Shown here: piece after piece, positions 2,497 through 38,284 of the stretch
Layout: each line of letters opens with the position of its first letter
Numbering within the stretch: position 1 is the stretch's first letter
From: a virus
DNA length: 38,411 nucleotides
Direction: 5' to 3' (one strand)
IMG/VR virus record: IMGVR_UViG_3300046524_000267
Location: 1 to 38,411 of that record
Made by a program: the position numbers and the translations under genes
The notes under the pieces: model-generated
The model's database searches: none
What the model saw: only the letters and a program-made list of their open reading frames with translations
What the model was told of the DNA's origin: nothing

Positions 2497-3186
2497 TTAG
2501 AGTTTCGCCAGCATCCGCGCATGGATGCGGGCGATTGGTTGCACGTCGCCGCCCTGTAGATCAGCAGCGGTTATGAAAGCCTCACCGAGTTGCTCCGCGG
2601 CCGCCAAGCGCTCGGGCGCTGGCCGGTTGCTATAGCGCGCCACGAACGGGCCGCCTTGTCCCCGGAACAGGCAGACCCAGCCCTCTTCGGGGCCGGCGCC
2701 CGCGCGCGCAACGATGTCCGAACAGATCACCACATCGCCCTCGGCTAAGCCGATCGCATCGTAATCCGATGGAAGTTCGGTGAGCCATAGGTCGTTGGCG
2801 CGCAGCAACCGGCGGTTGAGCCAGTCCCGTCGAATCGGGATCGTTTCTACGCGGTTGCCCTTGCTACTGTCGGTTATCGACCGCAGGTCGTATTGCGGCA
2901 CATTGACCCAATCAGCGTCGGCCGCGTCGATTAGCGGTTCGGCTGTCGGTCCAATTCCTTCGACCAGCCAGCGAGCGCTAACCTTCAAAGCATCGGCCAG
3001 CGAGAACAATTTCTCGGACCCACAAAAGCGCTCGCCGTGCCAATAGCCGGCCATCGACTGCTTTTTGATACCGGCCAAACGGCCGATTTCTGCGCTTTCC
3101 AAGCCCAACTCCGCCGCGCGCTCGCGAATGCGACGCCCGAACGCTGCTGGCGCTTGACGGTCCAATTCTCCATCCTTATGGTCCAT
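2497..3186 (-). CDS. Prophage repressor, Cro/CI-type HTH with S24-like C-terminal part
   Basis: The N-terminal third holds a Cro/CI-type helix-turn-helix (around SAEIGRLAGIKKQSMAGYW, then SLADALKVSARWLVEG). The C-terminal part resembles the LexA/CI peptidase S24 fold, with LAEGDVVICSD matching the usual GDxVxxD strand. The canonical GDSM catalytic serine motif is not visible, so self-cleavage is doubtful. The frame stays open to an ATG at 3219, but I prefer the ATG at 3186 because the longer form would overlap ner; neither has an ideal ribosome binding site. It is divergent from ner and should bind the palindrome at 3181-3196 to silence early transcription. Mu itself uses a different repressor type. 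Confidence 0.85.
   Translation of the reverse strand: MDHKDGELDRQAPAAFGRRIRERAAELGLESAEIGRLAGIKKQSMAGYWHGERFCGSEKLFSLADALKVSARWLVEGIGPTAEPLIDAADADWVNVPQYDLRSITDSSKGNRVETIPIRRDWLNRRLLRANDLWLTELPSDYDAIGLAEGDVVICSDIVARAGAGPEEGWVCLFRGQGGPFVARYSNRPAPERLAAAEQLGEAFITAADLQGGDVQPIARIHARMLAKL
3154..3182 (+). promoter_or_regulatory. Putative early promoter
   Basis: TTGACG (3154-3159) and TATGGT (3177-3182) are separated by 17 bases, a reasonable sigma70-type pair reading towards ner. The predicted RNA start is near 3189, giving a leader of about 30 bases with AAGGA (3206-3210) before the ATG at 3218. The palindrome at 3181-3196 overlaps the -10 end and the start site, and a half-site GGTCCAATTC lies in the spacer, as expected for a repressed promoter. 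Confidence 0.55.
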
Positions 3187-3196
3187 TTTATTGGAC
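3181..3196. promoter_or_regulatory. Operator palindrome copy 1
   Basis: GTCCATTTTATTGGAC has perfect 5-bp arms (GTCCA/TGGAC) around 6 bases and sits between repressor and ner, over the predicted early promoter start. The same arms and spacing recur at 3418-3433. I infer it is the binding site of the repressor, of Ner, or of both. Confidence 0.65.
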
Positions 3197-3217
3197 TCAA
3201 CGGCTAAGGATTTGGCC

Positions 3218-3484
3218 ATGCTAGCTCAGGGCCTCCATCGGGAGGACATCAAGGCGCATCTGCGCAAGCGGTACGGTTCGGTTCGCGCGTGGGCGCATAG
3301 CCGCAACCTGAAGCCGCAGGCGGTTGCCGACTTCATGCGCGGTCGCGCCAGCCAGCATGTGGCCCACGAAATTGAGGCAGAGCTTCAGACGGTCGATCAC
3401 AATGGCGAGGCCCCCGAGTCCATTAAGTTGGACAGTAGCGCCGCTTCGTCGGACGCGCACGGTCTAAATGCGGGGGCTCGCTAG
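3218..3484 (+). CDS. ner: Ner-like DNA-binding regulator
   Basis: The product starts MLAQGLHREDIKAHLRKRYG and continues with SVRAWAHSRNLKPQAVADFM, then RGRASQHVAHEIEAEL, the layout of the Ner/Nlp helix-turn-helix family (Mu Ner lowers early and repressor transcription during lytic growth). The C-terminal 30 residues are polar and probably disordered. I chose the ATG at 3218 because AAGGA lies seven bases upstream; an in-frame TTG at 3191 would start inside the operator. It is the first gene of the early operon and is followed two bases later by the ParB-like gene. Codons near its end contain the second operator palindrome. Confidence 0.82.
   Translation: MLAQGLHREDIKAHLRKRYGSVRAWAHSRNLKPQAVADFMRGRASQHVAHEIEAELQTVDHNGEAPESIKLDSSAASSDAHGLNAGAR
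3418..3433. promoter_or_regulatory. Operator palindrome copy 2
   Basis: GTCCATTAAGTTGGAC lies within the 3' end of ner, 54 bases before the ParB-like gene. It shares 13 of 16 positions with 3181-3196, differing only in the three central bases. Its coding translation (SIKLD) is unremarkable, so selection on DNA binding is plausible; it may allow looping between two repressor-bound sites or act as a roadblock. Confidence 0.6.
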
Positions 3485-9850: not shown

Positions 9851-9981
9851 CGTTCCTCCACTGGTTGAAGACCGAGGCACGGCAATACCCGCTGCTCACC
9901 GCAGGTGCGTGCGGCGCTTTCACCGCATGGCTGGCGCTCAATCTTCGGCCGATCGTCGACGCGATCGCGGGAGTGCTGTGA
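9847..9981 (+). CDS. Tiny membrane protein, 44 aa
   Basis: The frame starts MTFLHWLKTEARQYPLLTAG and has one hydrophobic helix (about residues 16-34). Its ATG overlaps the B stop (ATGA) and its TGA overlaps the next ATG, which argues for translation. The function is unknown; it is one of several very small membrane peptides in the early operon. Confidence 0.55.
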   Translation: MTFLHWLKTEARQYPLLTAGACGAFTAWLALNLRPIVDAIAGVL

Positions 9982-10394
9982 TGATGCAGGTCATCATACG
10001 GGGCGAGCGTTTGCCCTTCGAGTTGCTCGACGCGCTGTGCGCGACGATCGGCGCCGACATGGCGGTGCTGCACGGCGATCGCGTGGCCGCGGCCGGGCCG
10101 TCGATCGGGCAGATCATCGCCGATGTCGCCTTCGAAACCGGCCTGGCCGAGGCGCGCATTCTCAGTTCCAGCCGTCAGCGGCCGTTGTTCCGGGCGCGGG
10201 CTGCGATCTCCTACATCGCCAAAACGGTTACGAGTCTGAAGGCCACGGACATCGGCGCGGCCATGGGCTTCCGCGATCATTCGACCATTGCCAACCAGCT
10301 GGTCGCCGCCGAGCTACTACGCGCCGGCTCGGACCCGGCGTTCAAGCGCCTGACTGATCGCCTGGTTGCCCGCTATCGGGGGCGCGGCGCATGA
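9981..10394 (+). CDS. Stand-alone DnaA domain IV-like protein
   Basis: Residues from about 45 to the end align in pattern with the DNA-binding domain IV of DnaA: a helix leading to RAAISYIAKTVTSLKATDIG, then AAMGFRDHSTIANQLVAAE. FRDHSTI corresponds to the DnaA signature with DHSTV. The AAA+ domain of DnaA is absent, so it cannot act as a full initiator. It may bind DnaA-box-like sites or affect host replication around transposition; this is inference. It overlaps both neighbours and lies between B and gemA. Confidence 0.82.
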   Translation: MMQVIIRGERLPFELLDALCATIGADMAVLHGDRVAAAGPSIGQIIADVAFETGLAEARILSSSRQRPLFRARAAISYIAKTVTSLKATDIGAAMGFRDHSTIANQLVAAELLRAGSDPAFKRLTDRLVARYRGRGA

Positions 10395-11077: not shown

Positions 11078-11166
11078 TGCGCTGGCTGATGCACCCGGAA
11101 CGGGCCGACATCGCCGCTATAGTCGCTATGCTGGCGATCGCGGGGCTCATGGCGGCGTTCGCCTGA
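11077..11166 (+). CDS. Micro membrane protein, 29 aa
   Basis: The frame MRWLMHPERADIAAIVAMLA ends IAGLMAAFA, a single predicted membrane helix. The ATG overlaps the gemA stop (TGATG) and the TGA overlaps the mor ATG. Its size makes coding evidence weak, but the exact fit between two real genes supports it. Confidence 0.45.
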   Translation: MRWLMHPERADIAAIVAMLAIAGLMAAFA

Positions 11167-11546
11167 TGAACGCGCAACGTCCGATATCTGCCGCGGCCGA
11201 GCAGCTGGAGGAACTCGCCCAGGTCATCGGCCAGGTGAACTTGTCGACCCTGTGCAAGGTGTTCGGCGGTACGAAGATCTATATCCCGGCCAAGATGGGG
11301 CACAACCACCCTATCGCCGAAGCGATCGGGCTGAAGGCCGCCGCGCTCATGGCCGAACACTATTTCGGGACTTCGATCGACTTTCCTAAAGCGCATCTGC
11401 GCCGGCAACGCGTGATCGAGCTCGCAAAGTCGGGCAAGATGACCGTTGCGGATGCGGCCCGAGCCTGCGACTATACCGAGCGTCGGGTGTACCAGCTGCT
11501 CGCGGCTGAAAAGGACGACGACAACCAGCTCGACCTGTTCCGTTGA
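11166..11546 (+). CDS. mor: Mor-family transcription activator
   Basis: The 126-residue product matches the Mor/C family: a dimerisation region LEELAQVIGQVNLSTLCKVF, then GGTKIYIPAK and a C-terminal helix-turn-helix HLRRQRVIELAKSGKMTVAD with ERRVYQLL. Mor and C of Mu bind an inverted repeat upstream of a weak -10 and recruit RNA polymerase. It is the last early gene, and the palindrome CCTGAAATTCTTCAGG starts four bases after its stop, before the endolysin gene. I see only one Mor-type gene, so it may control all late units directly. Confidence 0.92.
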   Translation: MNAQRPISAAAEQLEELAQVIGQVNLSTLCKVFGGTKIYIPAKMGHNHPIAEAIGLKAAALMAEHYFGTSIDFPKAHLRRQRVIELAKSGKMTVADAARACDYTERRVYQLLAAEKDDDNQLDLFR

Positions 11547-11549
11547 TTT

Positions 11550-11601
11550 CCTGAAATTCTTCAGGTCAGCGTCGCCGCCCGACCTAGACCATAGCAGCCC
11601 C
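11550..11601 (+). promoter_or_regulatory. Late promoter 1, Mor-type site
   Basis: CCTGAAATTCTTCAGG (11550-11565) has perfect 6-bp arms. CCATAGC follows at 11589-11595 as a weak -10-like element, and the endolysin ATG lies 52 bases after the palindrome start. The same palindrome, CCATAGC and 52-base distance occur at 22036. If RNA starts about 43 bases from the palindrome centre, as for Mor at the Mu middle promoter, the start is at or next to the ATG. Confidence 0.78.
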
Positions 11602-12252
11602 ATGGGTGGGGAACCGGACATCGTCGTCGTCGCTTACACCAAGCGATTCGATGCGGCCTGCGATCGGTTGATCCCGATCGAGGGCGGCTATGTCAACAAG
11701 CGCGCCGATCCGGGCGGTGCCACCAAATACGGCATCTCGTTGCGTTTCCTGCTGGGCGAGGGCTTAAAGGACGTCGACCTCGACGGCCACGGCGACTTCG
11801 ACCTGGACATGGACGGCGATATTGATGTCGACGACATCAAGGCGCTGACGCCGGCCGACGCGAAATCGCTCTATTACCGCTGTTTCTGGAAGCCGTTGCT
11901 CTGTGAGCGGTGGCCGGCGCCGATCGGCGAAGCGATGTTCGACCAAGGCGTCAACGGCGGACTGACGGCAGCGAAGAAGCTGCTCCAGGTCGCCATCAAC
12001 GCTTGTCTTGCGCGTCGTGCCGGGTTCGCTGGGCGCCCGGAAGCCCTCATCGTTGACGGCGCCCTGGGCGAGAAAACGGCGAACGCGTTCGCTTGGGTGC
12101 TTACCCATCCCGGCGACGGAATGCCGGCGTTGATCGCCGCTTATCGCGCCGGCGCTGAGGCGCGGTACCGCGACCTTGTCGCCCGCAACCCCAAGCTCGG
12201 CGAGTTCCTCGGCGGCTGGGTCAAGCGTGCTCGCAACTTGGGGGTCTCATGA
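11602..12252 (+). CDS. Endolysin, GH108-type N-acetylmuramidase
   Basis: The 216-residue protein has LIPIEGGYVNKRADPGGATK followed by YGIS, the catalytic Glu (E27) and fold signature of GH108/secretion-activator type lysozymes that cut peptidoglycan glycan chains. Near residues 54-78 there is an Asp-rich insert (DLDGHGDFDLDMDGDIDVDD) that looks like an EF-hand or dockerin-type calcium loop. The C-terminal half resembles the family's peptidoglycan-binding part (VDGALGEKTANAF). There is no signal peptide, so release needs a holin. No ribosome binding site is seen before the ATG; the mRNA may be leaderless. Confidence 0.87.
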   Translation: MGGEPDIVVVAYTKRFDAACDRLIPIEGGYVNKRADPGGATKYGISLRFLLGEGLKDVDLDGHGDFDLDMDGDIDVDDIKALTPADAKSLYYRCFWKPLLCERWPAPIGEAMFDQGVNGGLTAAKKLLQVAINACLARRAGFAGRPEALIVDGALGEKTANAFAWVLTHPGDGMPALIAAYRAGAEARYRDLVARNPKLGEFLGGWVKRARNLGVS

Positions 12253-12800: not shown

Positions 12801-13011
12801 GCCCGCCGCAGACCCGATCGTCACGACTCGAACGGTGACGCGTACCGTGTGCCCGGCGGAGGTAACGGCCGCCAGTCCCGACCCGGTGCCTGCGTATGTC
12901 GGCGCGGCGATCGTCGTCCCGCCTGTCTATCTTGCGTGGGTCGCCGCTCACTTGCGCCGCGAACGCCTGCTCGACGCCCGCGCCGCCGATGCCCGGAGCC
13001 AGTGCCCGTAA
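12712..13011 (+). CDS. Outer-membrane spanin lipoprotein (Rz1-like)
   Basis: The product starts MPLFPPSRALPTAMLLAMLT with lipobox LTAC and Cys22 as the lipidation site, then a Pro-rich stretch typical of Rz1. Its first 89 bases lie within the Rz-like gene in another reading frame. The mature part (to residue 99) has a second hydrophobic patch (YVGAAIVVPPVYLAWVAA), longer than usual for Rz1. The stop overlaps the next ATG (TAATG). Nested Rz/Rz1 architecture supports the call. Confidence 0.68.
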   Translation: MPLFPPSRALPTAMLLAMLTACAASQAPLKPAADPIVTTRTVTRTVCPAEVTAASPDPVPAYVGAAIVVPPVYLAWVAAHLRRERLLDARAADARSQCP

Positions 13012-15638
13012 TGTCCGTATTTCAAGGAAACCCTGACGCTTCGCCCGATGTGCGCCTGGCTGCCCTGGAGGCAGCTGTCGCCGCGCTTGGTGGGCTTATC
13101 GAGGCGAACAAGGCCGCTGCCGACCAAGGGCTGGCAGCGGCGGGCGACAGCATCGAGAGTCTCGACGTAACCCAGCAGGGCCGGGTCAACGGGGAACAGC
13201 AAGGGCGCGAGGCTCGCGATCAGCTGCTCGCAGATCTGATCGCCGACGAGGAAGCCCAGCGCGTTAACGCGGTGGAGATATTGACCGGCGCCGTCTCGGT
13301 CGAGGTAAATGCGCGCACCGCGGCCGACACCGCGCTGGGCGGCCGGATCGACGACGAGGTGACGACGCGCACCGAGGCGATCACCGGCGAAGCCACCGCG
13401 CGCACCGTAGCCGACACGGCGCTGGGTGGCAGGATCGACGACGAGGTGACGGCACGCACCGCGGCGATCGCGGGTGAAACGACAGCGCGTACCGCCGCCG
13501 ATACCGCTTTGGGCGGCCGGATCGACGACGAGGTGACGGCACGCACCGCGGCGATCACTGGCGAAGCCAACGCGCGCGCCGCAGCGATCACGGGCGAAGC
13601 TACTGCACGCACCGCTGCCGACACCGCGCTGGGCGGCCGGATCGACGACGAGGTGACGGCACGCACCGCGGCGATCACCGCCGAAGCCAACGTGCGCGCC
13701 GCGGCAATCACGGGCGAAGCCACCGCACGCACCGCGGCCGATACCGCGCTGGGCGGCCGGATCGACGACGAGGTGACGGCACGCACCGCGGCGATCACCG
13801 CCGAAGCCAACGTGCGCGCCGCGGCGATCACGGGCGAAGCCACCGCACGCACCGCGGCCGACACCGCGCTGGGCGGCCGGATCGACGACGAGGTGACAGC
13901 ACGCACCGCGGCGATCACCGGCGAAGCCACTGCGCGCACAGCAGCCGATACGGCGCTGGGCGGTCGGATCGACACCGAAATCACTGCGCGAACCTCCGCT
14001 GACGCCTTACTCGCCGCCTCGGCGACGGCTGCCGCGCCCAGCGTCCGCGATCGCGCGCCCAAGGCGACCGATGACACCACCAAGGGCTATGCGATCGACG
14101 ATCTGTGGGCCATGCGTGACGGCCGCCAATACAAGGCTCTGTCCGTCGTGGCGGGGGCCGCCGTCTGGTCGAAAACCGCGCAAAGCAACACCCAAATCCC
14201 CGAAGACATGATCGGTGATCGCGTGCCAGGCGCGTCGTTGCTGATCGCGCCATTCAAGCTGCGCGCGGCGTACACGGGTTATTGCTTTCGGGTGAAGCGG
14301 GGGAGCGACAACACGACGCTCGATATCGGCTTCGTCTATGACGGCAACTTCAAGCTGTACGTCGCCGACTGGGCCGCTTGTGACAAGTTCATCGATGGCA
14401 CCACCGGTTGGTACAACATCATCTACGACCAGAGTGGCAACGGGTACGACCTGACCGAAGTCGCGGGGCGGCCGGTTTCCATCAACCACGCGATCACCAA
14501 CAACAAGAACGACATCAACGGCCTGCGCACCTTCTGCTTTTGGGGCGGCCCAACGACCGGCATGAAGATCGCGGATGCCCACACGGTCGAGCGGACGAAC
14601 TGCACCGTCATATCGGCTGGCCTTGTCGAGAGCTCAGGGCATGGCAACGCCTTTTGCGAGCTCGGTAACGATGCCAGTTACCTCAATCGCCTCCTGCTGA
14701 CGACGATCGTGCGCGACGGTCGACTGCAACCCATCGGGAACACGAACCTGGTGGGACCGCGCGTCGAAAGCAGCCTGCACGTCTTAGGGGCAGCGTTCGG
14801 GGTTAGCGCCGTCAACTACATGTGCAACGACGCCGTCGCGACGTCGGGCGCCTTGTCTTCGAAGACCCTCGCCAGCGGCTACGTCGGCGCGGCCAATACA
14901 TTCAGCTACACTTACTGGGGCGATTACGGGGCGTTCATGGTCTATCCGACCGCTCTGTCGCCCGCCACGATGCAGTTCCTCCGCCGGCTGCTGACACGGG
15001 CACTGCGGATCCAGCCTCAATGTCGCGATCGCATGGTCATCGTGGGCGATTCGATAACGGTAGGTGCCGACACGCCGGCTCAGCCGTGGTGGCGTCAAGC
15101 ACTCCCTTCGTTCGACGGCGACTGGAAGATCTACAACAATGCGCTTGAAGGCGACCGTGTTGCGCCCGCCTTGCCCGGCTACTCGGTGGCAGGGGGCAAC
15201 GCCTATGCCTCTGGCCGCCGCAACGTCATGGTCGTTGCCTACGGGACCAACGATCTGGCGCAGATGAACCCTGCGAACGGCGATGCCGCCAACGCTACAA
15301 CCGTTTACAACGACTTGGTGACCTGGTGCGGTTTAGCGCGCGCGACGGGCTACAAAGTCGTGATCTGCACGATCCTCCCGCGCAACAACTCGTTTACTGG
15401 CGGCCAGACCGTGACGTCGTTCGAGGCATCACGTCTGCTCTTGAACGCGCAAATCGTGGCCAATTGGGCCACCTTCGCAGACGGTTTGGCAGACTACGGC
15501 GGCGACCCGTACATCGGCCAACTCGCGAACGTTACCGACCTGACCTGGATGAATGGCAACCTTCATCCGAAGTCGCGCGGCCATGCGATCATGAGTGGTT
15601 ATGTCGTTTCCGCGGTCAACGGACTTGTCTGGCCGTGA
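13011..15638 (+). CDS. Tail fibre / receptor-binding protein with SGNH esterase domain
   Basis: The 875-residue protein has a helical N terminus, then coiled-coil repeats (about residues 100-330; unit ARTAADTALGGRIDDEVTAR with hendecad AITGEANVRAA), a middle domain with LRAAYTGYCFRVKRGSDNTT and YDQSGNGYDLTE, as in the LamG-like catalytic domain of arabinofuranosidase B, and a C-terminal SGNH/GDSL hydrolase with IVGDSIT (Ser681), GTND (about 745) and LHPKSRGH (His852). I infer a trimeric fibre that binds and deacetylates surface polysaccharide. It lies between the spanins and a holin-like gene, far from the tail genes. The start overlaps the Rz1-like stop. Confidence 0.85.
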   Translation: MSVFQGNPDASPDVRLAALEAAVAALGGLIEANKAAADQGLAAAGDSIESLDVTQQGRVNGEQQGREARDQLLADLIADEEAQRVNAVEILTGAVSVEVNARTAADTALGGRIDDEVTTRTEAITGEATARTVADTALGGRIDDEVTARTAAIAGETTARTAADTALGGRIDDEVTARTAAITGEANARAAAITGEATARTAADTALGGRIDDEVTARTAAITAEANVRAAAITGEATARTAADTALGGRIDDEVTARTAAITAEANVRAAAITGEATARTAADTALGGRIDDEVTARTAAITGEATARTAADTALGGRIDTEITARTSADALLAASATAAAPSVRDRAPKATDDTTKGYAIDDLWAMRDGRQYKALSVVAGAAVWSKTAQSNTQIPEDMIGDRVPGASLLIAPFKLRAAYTGYCFRVKRGSDNTTLDIGFVYDGNFKLYVADWAACDKFIDGTTGWYNIIYDQSGNGYDLTEVAGRPVSINHAITNNKNDINGLRTFCFWGGPTTGMKIADAHTVERTNCTVISAGLVESSGHGNAFCELGNDASYLNRLLLTTIVRDGRLQPIGNTNLVGPRVESSLHVLGAAFGVSAVNYMCNDAVATSGALSSKTLASGYVGAANTFSYTYWGDYGAFMVYPTALSPATMQFLRRLLTRALRIQPQCRDRMVIVGDSITVGADTPAQPWWRQALPSFDGDWKIYNNALEGDRVAPALPGYSVAGGNAYASGRRNVMVVAYGTNDLAQMNPANGDAANATTVYNDLVTWCGLARATGYKVVICTILPRNNSFTGGQTVTSFEASRLLLNAQIVANWATFADGLADYGGDPYIGQLANVTDLTWMNGNLHPKSRGHAIMSGYVVSAVNGLVWP
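13314..13996 (+). repeat. Mixed 87-bp and 120-bp in-frame tandem repeats
   Basis: The phrase encoding DTALGGRIDDEVTART begins at 13326, 13413, 13500, 13620, 13740, 13860 and 13947, giving spacings of 87, 87, 120, 120, 120 and 87 bases. The longer unit has one extra 33-base (11-residue) block, AITxEANxRAA. The copies starting 13620 and 13740 are almost identical at DNA level. All units keep the frame, so recombination would change fibre length without breaking the protein. Confidence 0.9.
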
Positions 15639-20817: not shown

Positions 20818-21965
20818 TGCCAGGCCCCGCCGACCTGCCAGCTGCCGGCGTTGCGCCACAGGAAGCAATAGACTTCTTCCGGTCGAAGGGGTTCCGAATC
20901 GGCTTCTCCTGGCTCGACATCTTCAAGGGCGAGCACGCGCGCTGGTTCACGGTCGCTAAGGCGATGAGCATGGCAGTGCTCGAAGATATCCGGGCCGAGG
21001 TCGACCAGGCGATCGCGGACGGCACAACGCTGGCCGAGTTCAAGAAGAACCTGCGCCCGAAACTGCAGGCGCGCGGTTGGTGGGGGCAAAAACGCGTGCT
21101 CGACCCTCAGACCGGCCAACACGAGCTCGCCCAGCTCGGCAGCGATCGCCGGCTGAAGACGATCTTCGACACCAACCTCCGGACCGCCTACGCGGCCGGC
21201 AAATGGGAGCGAATCCAGCGCACCAAGGCGGCGCTGCCGTTTCTGGAGTACAGTGCGCTGCTGGACGGTCGCGAGCGGCCGCAACATCACGCCTGGAATG
21301 GCACGATCCTCCCCGTCGACGATCCCTGGTGGGATACCCACTATCCGCCCTGCGGTTGGCATTGCCGCTGCTCAGCCGTTCAGCGCAGCCAGCGCATGCT
21401 CGACAGCCAGGGCAAGGAGATCACTCAGCCCGAGGTGTTCCCGCAGGTGCCCTGGACCAACCAACGAACCGGCGAGACCGGAACGCGCGAGCTCGGCGTG
21501 AGCAAGGGTTGGGATTACAATGTCGGCAAGGAATATCTCCGTGGCCTGGCGCCGGCACCGCTGCCGTCCAGCTTTGACGGCAACGACGAGGTTGGTGCAG
21601 CGGCAGACTTGACCTCGACCCAGCAAAGCCTGGTGAACCGCTTCCTGAAGAATTTCGGGATCGACCCCGGCAAGGAAGCGATTTGGCTCGATCGCGACGG
21701 GTGGCCGCTATCAATCGGCCGCAGCTGGTTCATCGGCGATGACGGCCGCGCGCGGCTTCCATCGGGCGCTGCCGGCGTCACGATCGACGCGATCGCCGGC
21801 GCGATCACCGATCCCAGCTCGATCGCTTGGGTCTGGGTCACGGCGCGCGATGGCAGTCAGATGATCATGCGGCGCTACATACGAAGAACGCCGTCGGGCA
21901 ATCGATCGACGGTCGTCGACGTGGGTCGCCAGGGGTGGCGCTGGACGGTGCGTGCCGGTCGCTAG
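20817..21965 (+). CDS. F: Head morphogenesis protein, Mu gpF-like (SPP1 gp7 family)
   Basis: The 382-residue product has the SPP1 gp7/Mu F signature: a region LKTIFDTNLRTAYAAGKWER followed by YSALLDGRERPQHHAWNGTI and HYPPCGWHCRCSAVQ, with the conserved Cys/His residues of this minor head family. It joins the portal and head assembly. It ends the packaging cluster. A 15-bp palindrome (TAGATCGGCGATCTA, 21963-21977) spans its stop codon. Confidence 0.92.
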   Translation: MPGPADLPAAGVAPQEAIDFFRSKGFRIGFSWLDIFKGEHARWFTVAKAMSMAVLEDIRAEVDQAIADGTTLAEFKKNLRPKLQARGWWGQKRVLDPQTGQHELAQLGSDRRLKTIFDTNLRTAYAAGKWERIQRTKAALPFLEYSALLDGRERPQHHAWNGTILPVDDPWWDTHYPPCGWHCRCSAVQRSQRMLDSQGKEITQPEVFPQVPWTNQRTGETGTRELGVSKGWDYNVGKEYLRGLAPAPLPSSFDGNDEVGAAADLTSTQQSLVNRFLKNFGIDPGKEAIWLDRDGWPLSIGRSWFIGDDGRARLPSGAAGVTIDAIAGAITDPSSIAWVWVTARDGSQMIMRRYIRRTPSGNRSTVVDVGRQGWRWTVRAGR

Positions 21966-22035: not shown

Positions 22036-22087
22036 CCTGAAATTCTTCAGGTTAGGGAATGCCTAGGCGAGCGCCATAGCCCGGCTC
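22036..22087 (+). promoter_or_regulatory. Late promoter 2, Mor-type site
   Basis: CCTGAAATTCTTCAGG (22036-22051) is identical to the element at 11550, with CCATAGC at 22074-22080 and the ATG of gene I exactly 52 bases from the palindrome start. The bases after the start (ATGGGCGGGGAAC) also match those at the endolysin (ATGGGTGGGGAAC). A shared activator site for the head unit is well supported; no ribosome binding site is visible upstream of the ATG. Confidence 0.8.
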
Positions 22088-23236
22088 ATGGGCGGGGAAC
22101 TTCAACAGGTTGGATTGGCCGAAGCGGCCGAGCGGATGGCCGCGGTTGCCGGCACGCATCCATGGCAGGCGCGCCAGCACCTCGAAATGGTTGCTGCCGC
22201 CCCCGCGCTGGACGAAGTGCTCGCGTCGGCCGCGGCACCGATCGACCTCGTCGACGGCGCGGCGCCCGAGCGGGTCAAGATTCTACCGATGGGCGAGATC
22301 AAGCTGCGCGACGGTCGCGGGCCGTATCAGCTTCGCGACCAGGCGCATGCCCAGCAAGTGATTGCCAACACGCGAACCTATCTTGGCTCCCTCGACTTTA
22401 GCTTCGATTACAACCACGCCGTGACCGTCGCCGGCAGCGACGCGAAGGCGTCGGGATGGTGCTCGCCGGCCGACCTGACCGCCGAGGCTGACGGCATCTA
22501 CGCGAACAAAGTGCAGTGGACGCCACGCGGACGCCAGGCGCTCGAAGATCGAGAGTATCGCTACATCAGCCCGCTGTTCGTCGCCGCCGGCGTCAAGGAC
22601 GGCGGCGATGTCATCCATCTCAAGAATGCGTCCCTCGTCATTATCGGGGCGATTGACCTGCCGGCGGTGGCCGCCGGCGTTTCCGGAGAAGAACACGCAA
22701 TGGATCTCGCCAAATTCCTGGCGCTGCTCGGCCTGCCGGCCGACGCGCCCGAGGAGACGGTCGCCGCGGCGATCGCCAACCTCAAGGGCTCGACCTCGAT
22801 CGCGGCGATCGCCGCGGCCGCCGGCCTGGCCGAAACCGCGACGGCCGAGGAGGTCGCCGCCGGCGTTGCCACGCTTAAGAGCGGCGCCACGATCGATCCC
22901 ACGAAGTTCGTGCCGATCGAGCAGCTGCAGCAGGTGGCCGGCCAGCTCAGCACCCTGAATGACGAGCGCGCCGAACGAGTGGTCGCGGCGGCGATCACGG
23001 CCGGCAAGGTTGCGCCGGCCGCCAAGAAATGGGCGCTCGATTATTTCAAGAAGGACGAGGCCGGCTTCAATGCCTATCTCGGCGTTGCCCCCGAGATCGT
23101 CGCTGCGGGCGCCGAGCTCGGCGATCGCAAGGTCGTGCTCGGCGACGACACCCTGACCGCCGATGAGGTCGCGGCCTGTGCCCTGACGGGCATCAGCCAC
23201 GAAGACTTCATCGCCAGCCGGAAGGAGCTCGTTTAA
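22088..23236 (+). CDS. I: Head maturation protease, Mu gpI-like
   Basis: The 382-residue product resembles the Mu I protease/scaffold: VKILPMGEIKLRDGRGPYQL opens the protease domain, FSFDYNHAVT and ASGWCSPADLTAEADGIYAN follow, with EYRYISPLFV typical of the family. His in DYNHAV and Ser or Asp nearby may be catalytic, but I cannot assign them with certainty. The C-terminal half is the scaffold, also made separately from an internal start. It is the first gene after late promoter 2. Confidence 0.9.
   Translation: MGGELQQVGLAEAAERMAAVAGTHPWQARQHLEMVAAAPALDEVLASAAAPIDLVDGAAPERVKILPMGEIKLRDGRGPYQLRDQAHAQQVIANTRTYLGSLDFSFDYNHAVTVAGSDAKASGWCSPADLTAEADGIYANKVQWTPRGRQALEDREYRYISPLFVAAGVKDGGDVIHLKNASLVIIGAIDLPAVAAGVSGEEHAMDLAKFLALLGLPADAPEETVAAAIANLKGSTSIAAIAAAAGLAETATAEEVAAGVATLKSGATIDPTKFVPIEQLQQVAGQLSTLNDERAERVVAAAITAGKVAPAAKKWALDYFKKDEAGFNAYLGVAPEIVAAGAELGDRKVVLGDDTLTADEVAACALTGISHEDFIASRKELV
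22700..23236 (+). CDS. Z: Scaffold protein Z from internal start within I
   Basis: Within gene I and in the same frame, GGAGAAG (22685-22691) lies eight bases before the ATG at 22700, which opens MDLAKFLALLGLPADAPEET. This reproduces the Mu arrangement in which scaffold Z is made from an internal start in I. The 178-residue product is helical and Ala-rich with a small C-terminal domain. It should shape the prohead and be removed by the protease. Confidence 0.72.
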   Translation: MDLAKFLALLGLPADAPEETVAAAIANLKGSTSIAAIAAAAGLAETATAEEVAAGVATLKSGATIDPTKFVPIEQLQQVAGQLSTLNDERAERVVAAAITAGKVAPAAKKWALDYFKKDEAGFNAYLGVAPEIVAAGAELGDRKVVLGDDTLTADEVAACALTGISHEDFIASRKELV

Positions 23237-37357: not shown

Positions 37358-38284
37358 GTGGACTTACGTACCAACTTCCGCCCTGAATCGGGCGATCTGT
37401 TCGGCATCTCGCTCTGCGCAGGATATGCAGGTCTCGACCTCGGGCTGCACCTCGCCGAACCCAACTATCGAACTGTGGCTTTCGTCGAGCGGGAAAGCCA
37501 CGCGGCGGCCACTCTCGTGGCGAGGATGGCGGACCAGGCCTTGGGTGACGCGCCTATCTGGGACGACCTTAGAACCTTCAATGGCCGGCCTTGGCGTGGC
37601 CGCGTTCATCTCGTCTCTGCCGGTTATCCCTGCCAACCCTTCAGCTACGCTGGCCGGCGAGGCGGTAAGGACGATCCGCGACATCTCTGGCCCGATGTCG
37701 CCCGAATCGTGGAAGAGGCGGCGCCGGAGTGGGTCTTCTGCGAGAACGTTGAAGGCCACCTGTCGTTGGGATACGCCGAGGTCGCGGCAGACCTTCGACG
37801 CATGGGCTACAACCCAAAGGCGGGCCTGTTCACGGCGCGAGAGGTCGGCGCTCGCCACCGCCGGCGCCGGCTCTTTATCCTGGCCCACTCCAACAGCGTC
37901 AGACGCCGGCTATATCCCGGACCTGTTGGTCGCGGCGGGTCGGATCGGCATAACGGGGCCGACGGACATCAGCGCGGGCAGCGGAGGACAATACTCCCTG
38001 GAGCGGTCGACACGCGTCTGGACCAAGCTCTGGCTGATGCTACGCGCGTTGGGGGTCTCGACGGAGAATCTGACGATCCCATCTTCGCTCCCGGTCCGGG
38101 TGAGCTTCAGGAGTGGGAACGGGTGCTTCTACGCCGCCCTGATCTCCAACCCGCAATTCTACGAGCTGATGATGGGATGGCCGATCGGATGGACCGCACC
38201 AGGGGCGTCGGTAACGGAGTTTCCAGCCTGGCTGCAGCGCTCGCGTGGGCGGTTCTCAAGTCTGCTCACGGAATACCAGGATGA
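37358..38284 (+). CDS. dcm: C5-cytosine DNA methyltransferase
   Basis: The 308-residue product shows the order of C5-methyltransferase motifs: I (GISLCAGYAGLDLGL, 16-30), IV with catalytic Cys92 (GYPCQPFS), VI (ENV, 129-131), VIII (ARHRRRRLF, 165-173) and X (GVGNGVSSLAAALAW near 284-298). It should protect phage DNA against restriction. The start is GTG at 37358, close behind com. The region between VIII and X is low-complexity, as in many phage enzymes, and the overlapping +1 frame reads as a plausible alternative C-terminal part. Confidence 0.93.
   Translation: MDLRTNFRPESGDLFGISLCAGYAGLDLGLHLAEPNYRTVAFVERESHAAATLVARMADQALGDAPIWDDLRTFNGRPWRGRVHLVSAGYPCQPFSYAGRRGGKDDPRHLWPDVARIVEEAAPEWVFCENVEGHLSLGYAEVAADLRRMGYNPKAGLFTAREVGARHRRRRLFILAHSNSVRRRLYPGPVGRGGSDRHNGADGHQRGQRRTILPGAVDTRLDQALADATRVGGLDGESDDPIFAPGPGELQEWERVLLRRPDLQPAILRADDGMADRMDRTRGVGNGVSSLAAALAWAVLKSAHGIPG

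Follow-up and report, generated by a model that had tools for sequence, protein, structure and literature searches.

Late control outside Mu has mostly been guessed from gene names, and the locus studied here raises the question of how a transposable phage with one Mor-type protein could switch on its lysis and head genes. The window, i.e. the whole stretch of DNA analysed (38,411 bp, GC-rich, record G000), is a Mu-like transposable phage record with the gene order MuA, MuB, GemA, Mor, endolysin, Gp27 and terminase; its host is probably Sphingomonas, as judged from the relatives described below. The last gene of the early region, mor (11166..11546, + strand), encodes a 126-aa protein of the Mor/C family, scoring 33.3 bits against PF08765 (cut-off 24.9) and matching phrog_836 (late transcriptional activator) with an E value of 1.2e-23. 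PF08765 was matched by this gene only in the window, in agreement with the original prediction of a single Mor-type protein as the late activator. Profile comparison of the protein with Mu Mor (1rr7) gave a weak match (E 0.49); the helix-turn-helix part is alignable to Mu Mor (hhalign, 78%); the predicted monomer (pLDDT 79) gave no significant Foldseek match among known structures, Mu Mor included.

A late promoter had been predicted between mor and the endolysin gene, based on a palindrome. This palindrome, CCTGAAATTCTTCAGG (operator O1, 11550..11565), has perfect 6-bp arms and a 4-bp centre (CCTGAA-ATTC-TTCAGG) and is the proposed site for a Mor dimer at the lysis promoter. Its position was given correctly, the mor stop codon TGA lying at 11544-11546 and the palindrome beginning at the fourth base after it; the 52 bp said to separate it from the endolysin ATG are right when counted from the palindrome start to the ATG at 11602. 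The downstream elements CCATAGC and ATGGGTGGGGAAC were found at 11589-11595 and 11602-11614, respectively. The endolysin gene (11602..12252, + strand), the first of the lysis operon, encodes a glycosyl hydrolase 108 domain (PF05838, E 2.2e-19) and a PG_binding_3 domain (PF09374, E 1.7e-9). Because the GC-rich window contains 38 perfect palindromes of the same arm and centre lengths, the O1 palindrome alone is not beyond chance.

What raises O1 above chance is a second site. The 16 bp of O1 have one exact copy elsewhere in the window, operator O2 (22036..22051; 18 bp identical with the flanks), proposed as the Mor-dimer site of a head promoter, and the start of O2 is likewise 52 bp from an ATG, that of the head protease/scaffold gene. 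This gene (22088..23236, + strand; 382 aa) is a relative of Mu gene I, has a homologous tract at the matching place in the relatives L027-L042, and the promoter profile described below matches at 22044; its mRNA, like that of the endolysin, is proposed to be leaderless or nearly so. Ungapped comparison of the two sites showed that they have in common the palindrome plus 1 base on each side, most of a TYAG motif after it, CATAGC (with the register off by one), and CATGGGYGGGGAAC, a block which lies at 11602-11614 and 22088-22100. Between the palindrome and the -10-like hexamer only 8 of 24 bp are identical, indicating that O1 and O2 do not result from a recent duplication. The 38 palindromes of the window could be taken to mean that O1 is a chance palindrome or a coding coincidence; this reading has next to no likelihood, given the exact repeat with identical spacing, and is refuted by the comparative data below, in which the arrangement recurs with other sequences and covaries with Mor. 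The late promoter at O1 is thus supported as one of a pair, although the lone palindrome first described was not significant. Near-palindromes at 21644 and 30434 were rejected as further sites; they lie inside long reading frames and are without the -10 and the ATG.

Both sites carry a -10-like CATAGC (11590..11595 and 22075..22080, + strand), which lies 32 bp and 31 bp, respectively, after the palindrome centre. No sigma-70 consensus promoter was found in the site 1 region, and the hexamer at 11590 is recognisable, although weak, with no -35-like hexamer before it, as is typical of Mor-type promoters. Among 39 aligned sites, the clear conservation beyond the palindrome and its flank was an A/T block spanning +33 to +35 relative to the centre, with a CATA motif beginning at +30 to +33 in most of them. 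When a promoter profile was built from other phages only, with the window left out, just the O1 and O2 places were found (34.3 and 29.1 bits; next, -9.4). Two of the relatives, L027 and L028, are in records of 5.9 and 4.3 Mb, and in each of these the composite pattern occurs only twice, both times in the prophage at the lysis and protease places; the reversed control gave 0. A scan of viral contigs with a loose composite motif returned 22 matches, which looked like chance and were discarded.

The inverted repeats might also act in RNA, as hairpins that serve as terminators or processing sites ending the early and packaging operons; site 1 is only 3 nt past a stop codon, and the RNA could fold (-7.8 kcal/mol). 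However, the region yielded no site resembling a terminator followed by a T run, several relatives have palindromes that leave no loop (CCGCCATGGCGG, GGGTGAAATATTTCACCC), and the spacing from both the -10-like block and the ATG is fixed, so a role of this kind is very improbable.

Relatives were collected with the terminase, since a search with Mor only returned near-identical phages; the relatives obtained in this way were 52-93% identical in terminase and included two Sphingomonas genomes. Further prophages came from 398 genomes of the same family, which were searched with a Mor profile. In many of them, the inverted repeat nearest the mor stop codon reappears 7-12 kb downstream, before the protease gene. 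For example, CCTGAA-WTAG-TTCAGG in L028, CCTGACATTTGTCAGG in L027 and GGGTGAAATATTTCACCC in L042 are each present twice, after mor and before the protease gene. This layout is retained in the sphingomonad Mu-like relatives; the palindrome differs in most phages and is usually unlike that of the window, the diverse forms including CCGCCATGGCGG, GCCCGCTTCGGCGGGC and GGAACGCGTTCC. The check proposed with the original prediction, a search of relatives for the palindrome at the same distance, therefore bore it out in position: the palindromes keep their place after mor and their spacing from the -10-like block and the ATG, and their sequence varies with Mor. In a swap test on 20 phages, the palindrome of each phage and 19 palindromes borrowed from other phages were matched against its downstream region. 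The phage's own palindrome beat all 19 in 9 phages and was equalled by just 1-2 of them in 4 others; a clear second copy was not found in 6 of the 20. A third copy of the L083 palindrome, at L083:14135, lies before a 171-aa frame whose ATG is at +46, and that phage may thus have a third late promoter. In the L038 phage (L105:1890-2180), mor and the lysis gene are separated by another gene, after which a related element is found; the operator thus seems to be tied to the lysis gene and not to mor.

Palindrome similarity was correlated with Mor identity (Mantel r 0.59, p 2e-4), also with terminase identity controlled (r 0.47, p 2e-4), and more weakly with terminase identity when Mor was controlled (r 0.22, p 0.03); matrix tests of this type can inflate significance, and the phage sample was non-random. 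This covariation bears on whether the palindrome serves not Mor but another regulator of the late genes, activating or repressing, for instance a host factor or the phage repressor. The window does encode a CI-like repressor (2497-3219), and binding of Mor to the palindrome is a proposal. Nevertheless, palindrome similarity tracks Mor identity once terminase identity is accounted for, most relatives have the first site next to mor, and the geometry is the same as that of Mu Mor, all of which make another regulator distinctly improbable and point to Mor as the protein that would bind.

The position of the start codons was the next feature shared by the sites. An ATG was present at +43 to +46 from the palindrome centre in 26 of 42 sites, against about 1.6 expected from a background of 0.0096 per position (0.038 per site); the binomial p value of 1e-26 is a guide only, because some of the sites are related to one another. 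With one exception, these ATGs open frames of at least 57 aa, mostly lysis or protease genes. The exception, in L027 (2944-3060), opens a frame of 35 aa only, the stop codon of which overlaps the next start (CTATGACACC). At both window sites, 44.5 bp separate the palindrome centre from the A of the ATG, and the hexamer ends 7 bp (site 1) and 8 bp (site 2) before this A; from this spacing and the -10 position, RNA would be expected to start on the A, give or take a base or two. Relative to this predicted start, an inverted repeat of about 16 bp is thus centred close to -43.5 at both sites.

The start codons at both window sites are also without Shine-Dalgarno sequences. The statement that no ribosome binding site is visible before the endolysin gene was confirmed by its anti-Shine-Dalgarno duplex of +0.4 kcal/mol, the weakest among 34 starts scored, part of which were picked by eye. 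Pairing was also weak for the head protease gene (-2.2 kcal/mol), and 14 of the 32 other scored starts reach -7 kcal/mol or lower. Leaderless mRNAs are common in alphaproteobacteria, with 375 in Caulobacter (PMC4117421) and 119 leaderless TSS-gene pairs in Zymomonas (PMC7566282). The likeness to the mRNAs of these two bacteria lies in the 5′ end at the AUG, which is predicted here, and the lack of a Shine-Dalgarno sequence (PMC4117421, PMC7566282); those cases are host genes, whereas the present one concerns late phage operons under an activator.

It is also conceivable that O1 and O2 mark true Mor sites and late promoters with RNA starting upstream, giving ordinary leaders, or a few bases inside the gene, so that the ATG would lie where it does by coincidence. 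The -10 hexamer is a weak one, found 12-14 bp away from the ATG depending on the site, which makes leaders of 1-2 nt possible; in L038, L075, L083, L086, L089 and L090 the start codons are further downstream, some after a Shine-Dalgarno-like stretch. In about a third of the relatives' sites, mostly those of the protease, the start codon is 15-35 bp further downstream, and leaderlessness is therefore not essential to the system. The concentration of ATGs at +43 to +46 and the missing Shine-Dalgarno sequences speak against this alternative, as do the bases right before the ATG, which are mostly pyrimidines and make the A a likely start base. On balance it seems unlikely.

We therefore consider it likely that the sole Mor-family protein of this phage directly activates two late promoters, the mRNAs of which are leaderless or nearly so. 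Early transcription would yield Mor last; a Mor dimer on the 16-bp palindrome would then substitute for the -35 element, and RNA polymerase would use the weak -10 (CATAGC) one turn downstream. RNA would begin at the A of the start codon (position 11602 for the lysis promoter) or within about 2 nt of it, and the endolysin (11602) and protease (22088) mRNAs would be translated without a Shine-Dalgarno sequence.

Promoters activated by Mor/C proteins are an already known type. In Mu, Mor binds as a dimer to a 16-bp element, which is centred at -43.5 and takes the place of the -35 (PMC4390567); the targets of the C protein are lys, I, P and mom (PMC4461284). Applied to the window, the Mu Mor geometry would place the RNA start no more than about 1 bp from the ATG. 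The window resembles Mu Pm in the activator family, in the 16-bp inverted repeat about 43.5 bp before the start, and in a -10 without a -35 (PMC4390567). It differs in having arms of 6 bp and a centre of 4 bp, compared with 5 and 6 bp in Pm, and site 2 has no conserved A/T-rich stretch upstream. While Mu Mor acts at one middle promoter, Pm, to make C, the window has only Mor, with sites at the lysis and head genes. These places, before a lysis gene (endolysin, 11602) and a gene I relative (protease, 22088), correspond to Mu Plys and PI, which depend on one Mor/C-family activator (PMC4461284), as those of the window would. Unlike the Mu late promoters, those of the window are accompanied by no C gene, and their predicted RNA start falls on the start codon. 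A third or fourth site, as counterpart of Mu P and mom, was not found in the window. The likeness to Mu Pm, Plys and PI is well supported by sequence comparison, and late control here would be a version cut to one activator, with the start codon at the RNA start.

Similar arrangements were observed in the Pseudomonas phages of Casadabanvirus (D3112, DMS3, MP29 and JBD24), which have a mor-like gene and an element, TTGAACCCCTTCC, before the lysis region or first late frame and before the protease gene. An ATG is located 43-44 bp from the centre of this element in the D3112 group; in MP29 and JBD24 the protease frame begins with the ATG at that offset, which is also the annotated start in JBD24. 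Unlike the perfect arms of the window, TTGAACCCCTTCC is weakly palindromic, and the papers found on the D3112 group map no promoters. In the D3112 record (L100:3750, about 10749), a 115-aa frame unannotated in D3112 starts 43 bp from the shared element; JBD88a has an annotated frame at the corresponding place. No clear element common to both places was found in RS1 and Aussie, and no clear pair in Mu or in B3, where mor is at the opposite genome end; B3 and Mu were judged by eye or from short shared words only. RNA-seq of the B3-like phage Fc02 showed clustered late transcription, the first cluster starting from the holin-endolysin genes (PMC9936078), which fits a lysis promoter.

Tentatively, and with somewhat less than even confidence, we extend this reading to many Mu-like phages, in which the operator may evolve fast with Mor, selection may keep the start codons of the lysis and head genes exactly where the activated RNA begins, and late mRNAs may be leaderless. 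If so, these phages would form a natural set of separate activator-operator pairs, with transcription and translation starts fused in one element. An inverted repeat after mor with a second copy before the protease gene would be a simple rule, easy to read, by which late promoters, true start codons and the operator belonging to each Mor could be predicted. How Mor-family proteins recognise DNA could be tested directly on the many Mor-palindrome pairs. Leaderless mRNAs would make this an unusual case in which whole late phage operons depend on leaderless translation.

Several other features of the window were noted. The early region encodes a protein with a DnaA C-terminal helix-turn-helix domain (9879-10391; PF08299, E 2.7e-12), an odd neighbour for MuA and MuB. 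A tail-fibre-like gene (13000-14100) contains short in-frame coding repeats of the ARTAADTALGGRIDDEV type. At the right end, a frame at 37358-38284 resembles a C5-cytosine DNA methyltransferase (GYPCQPFSYAGRRGG).
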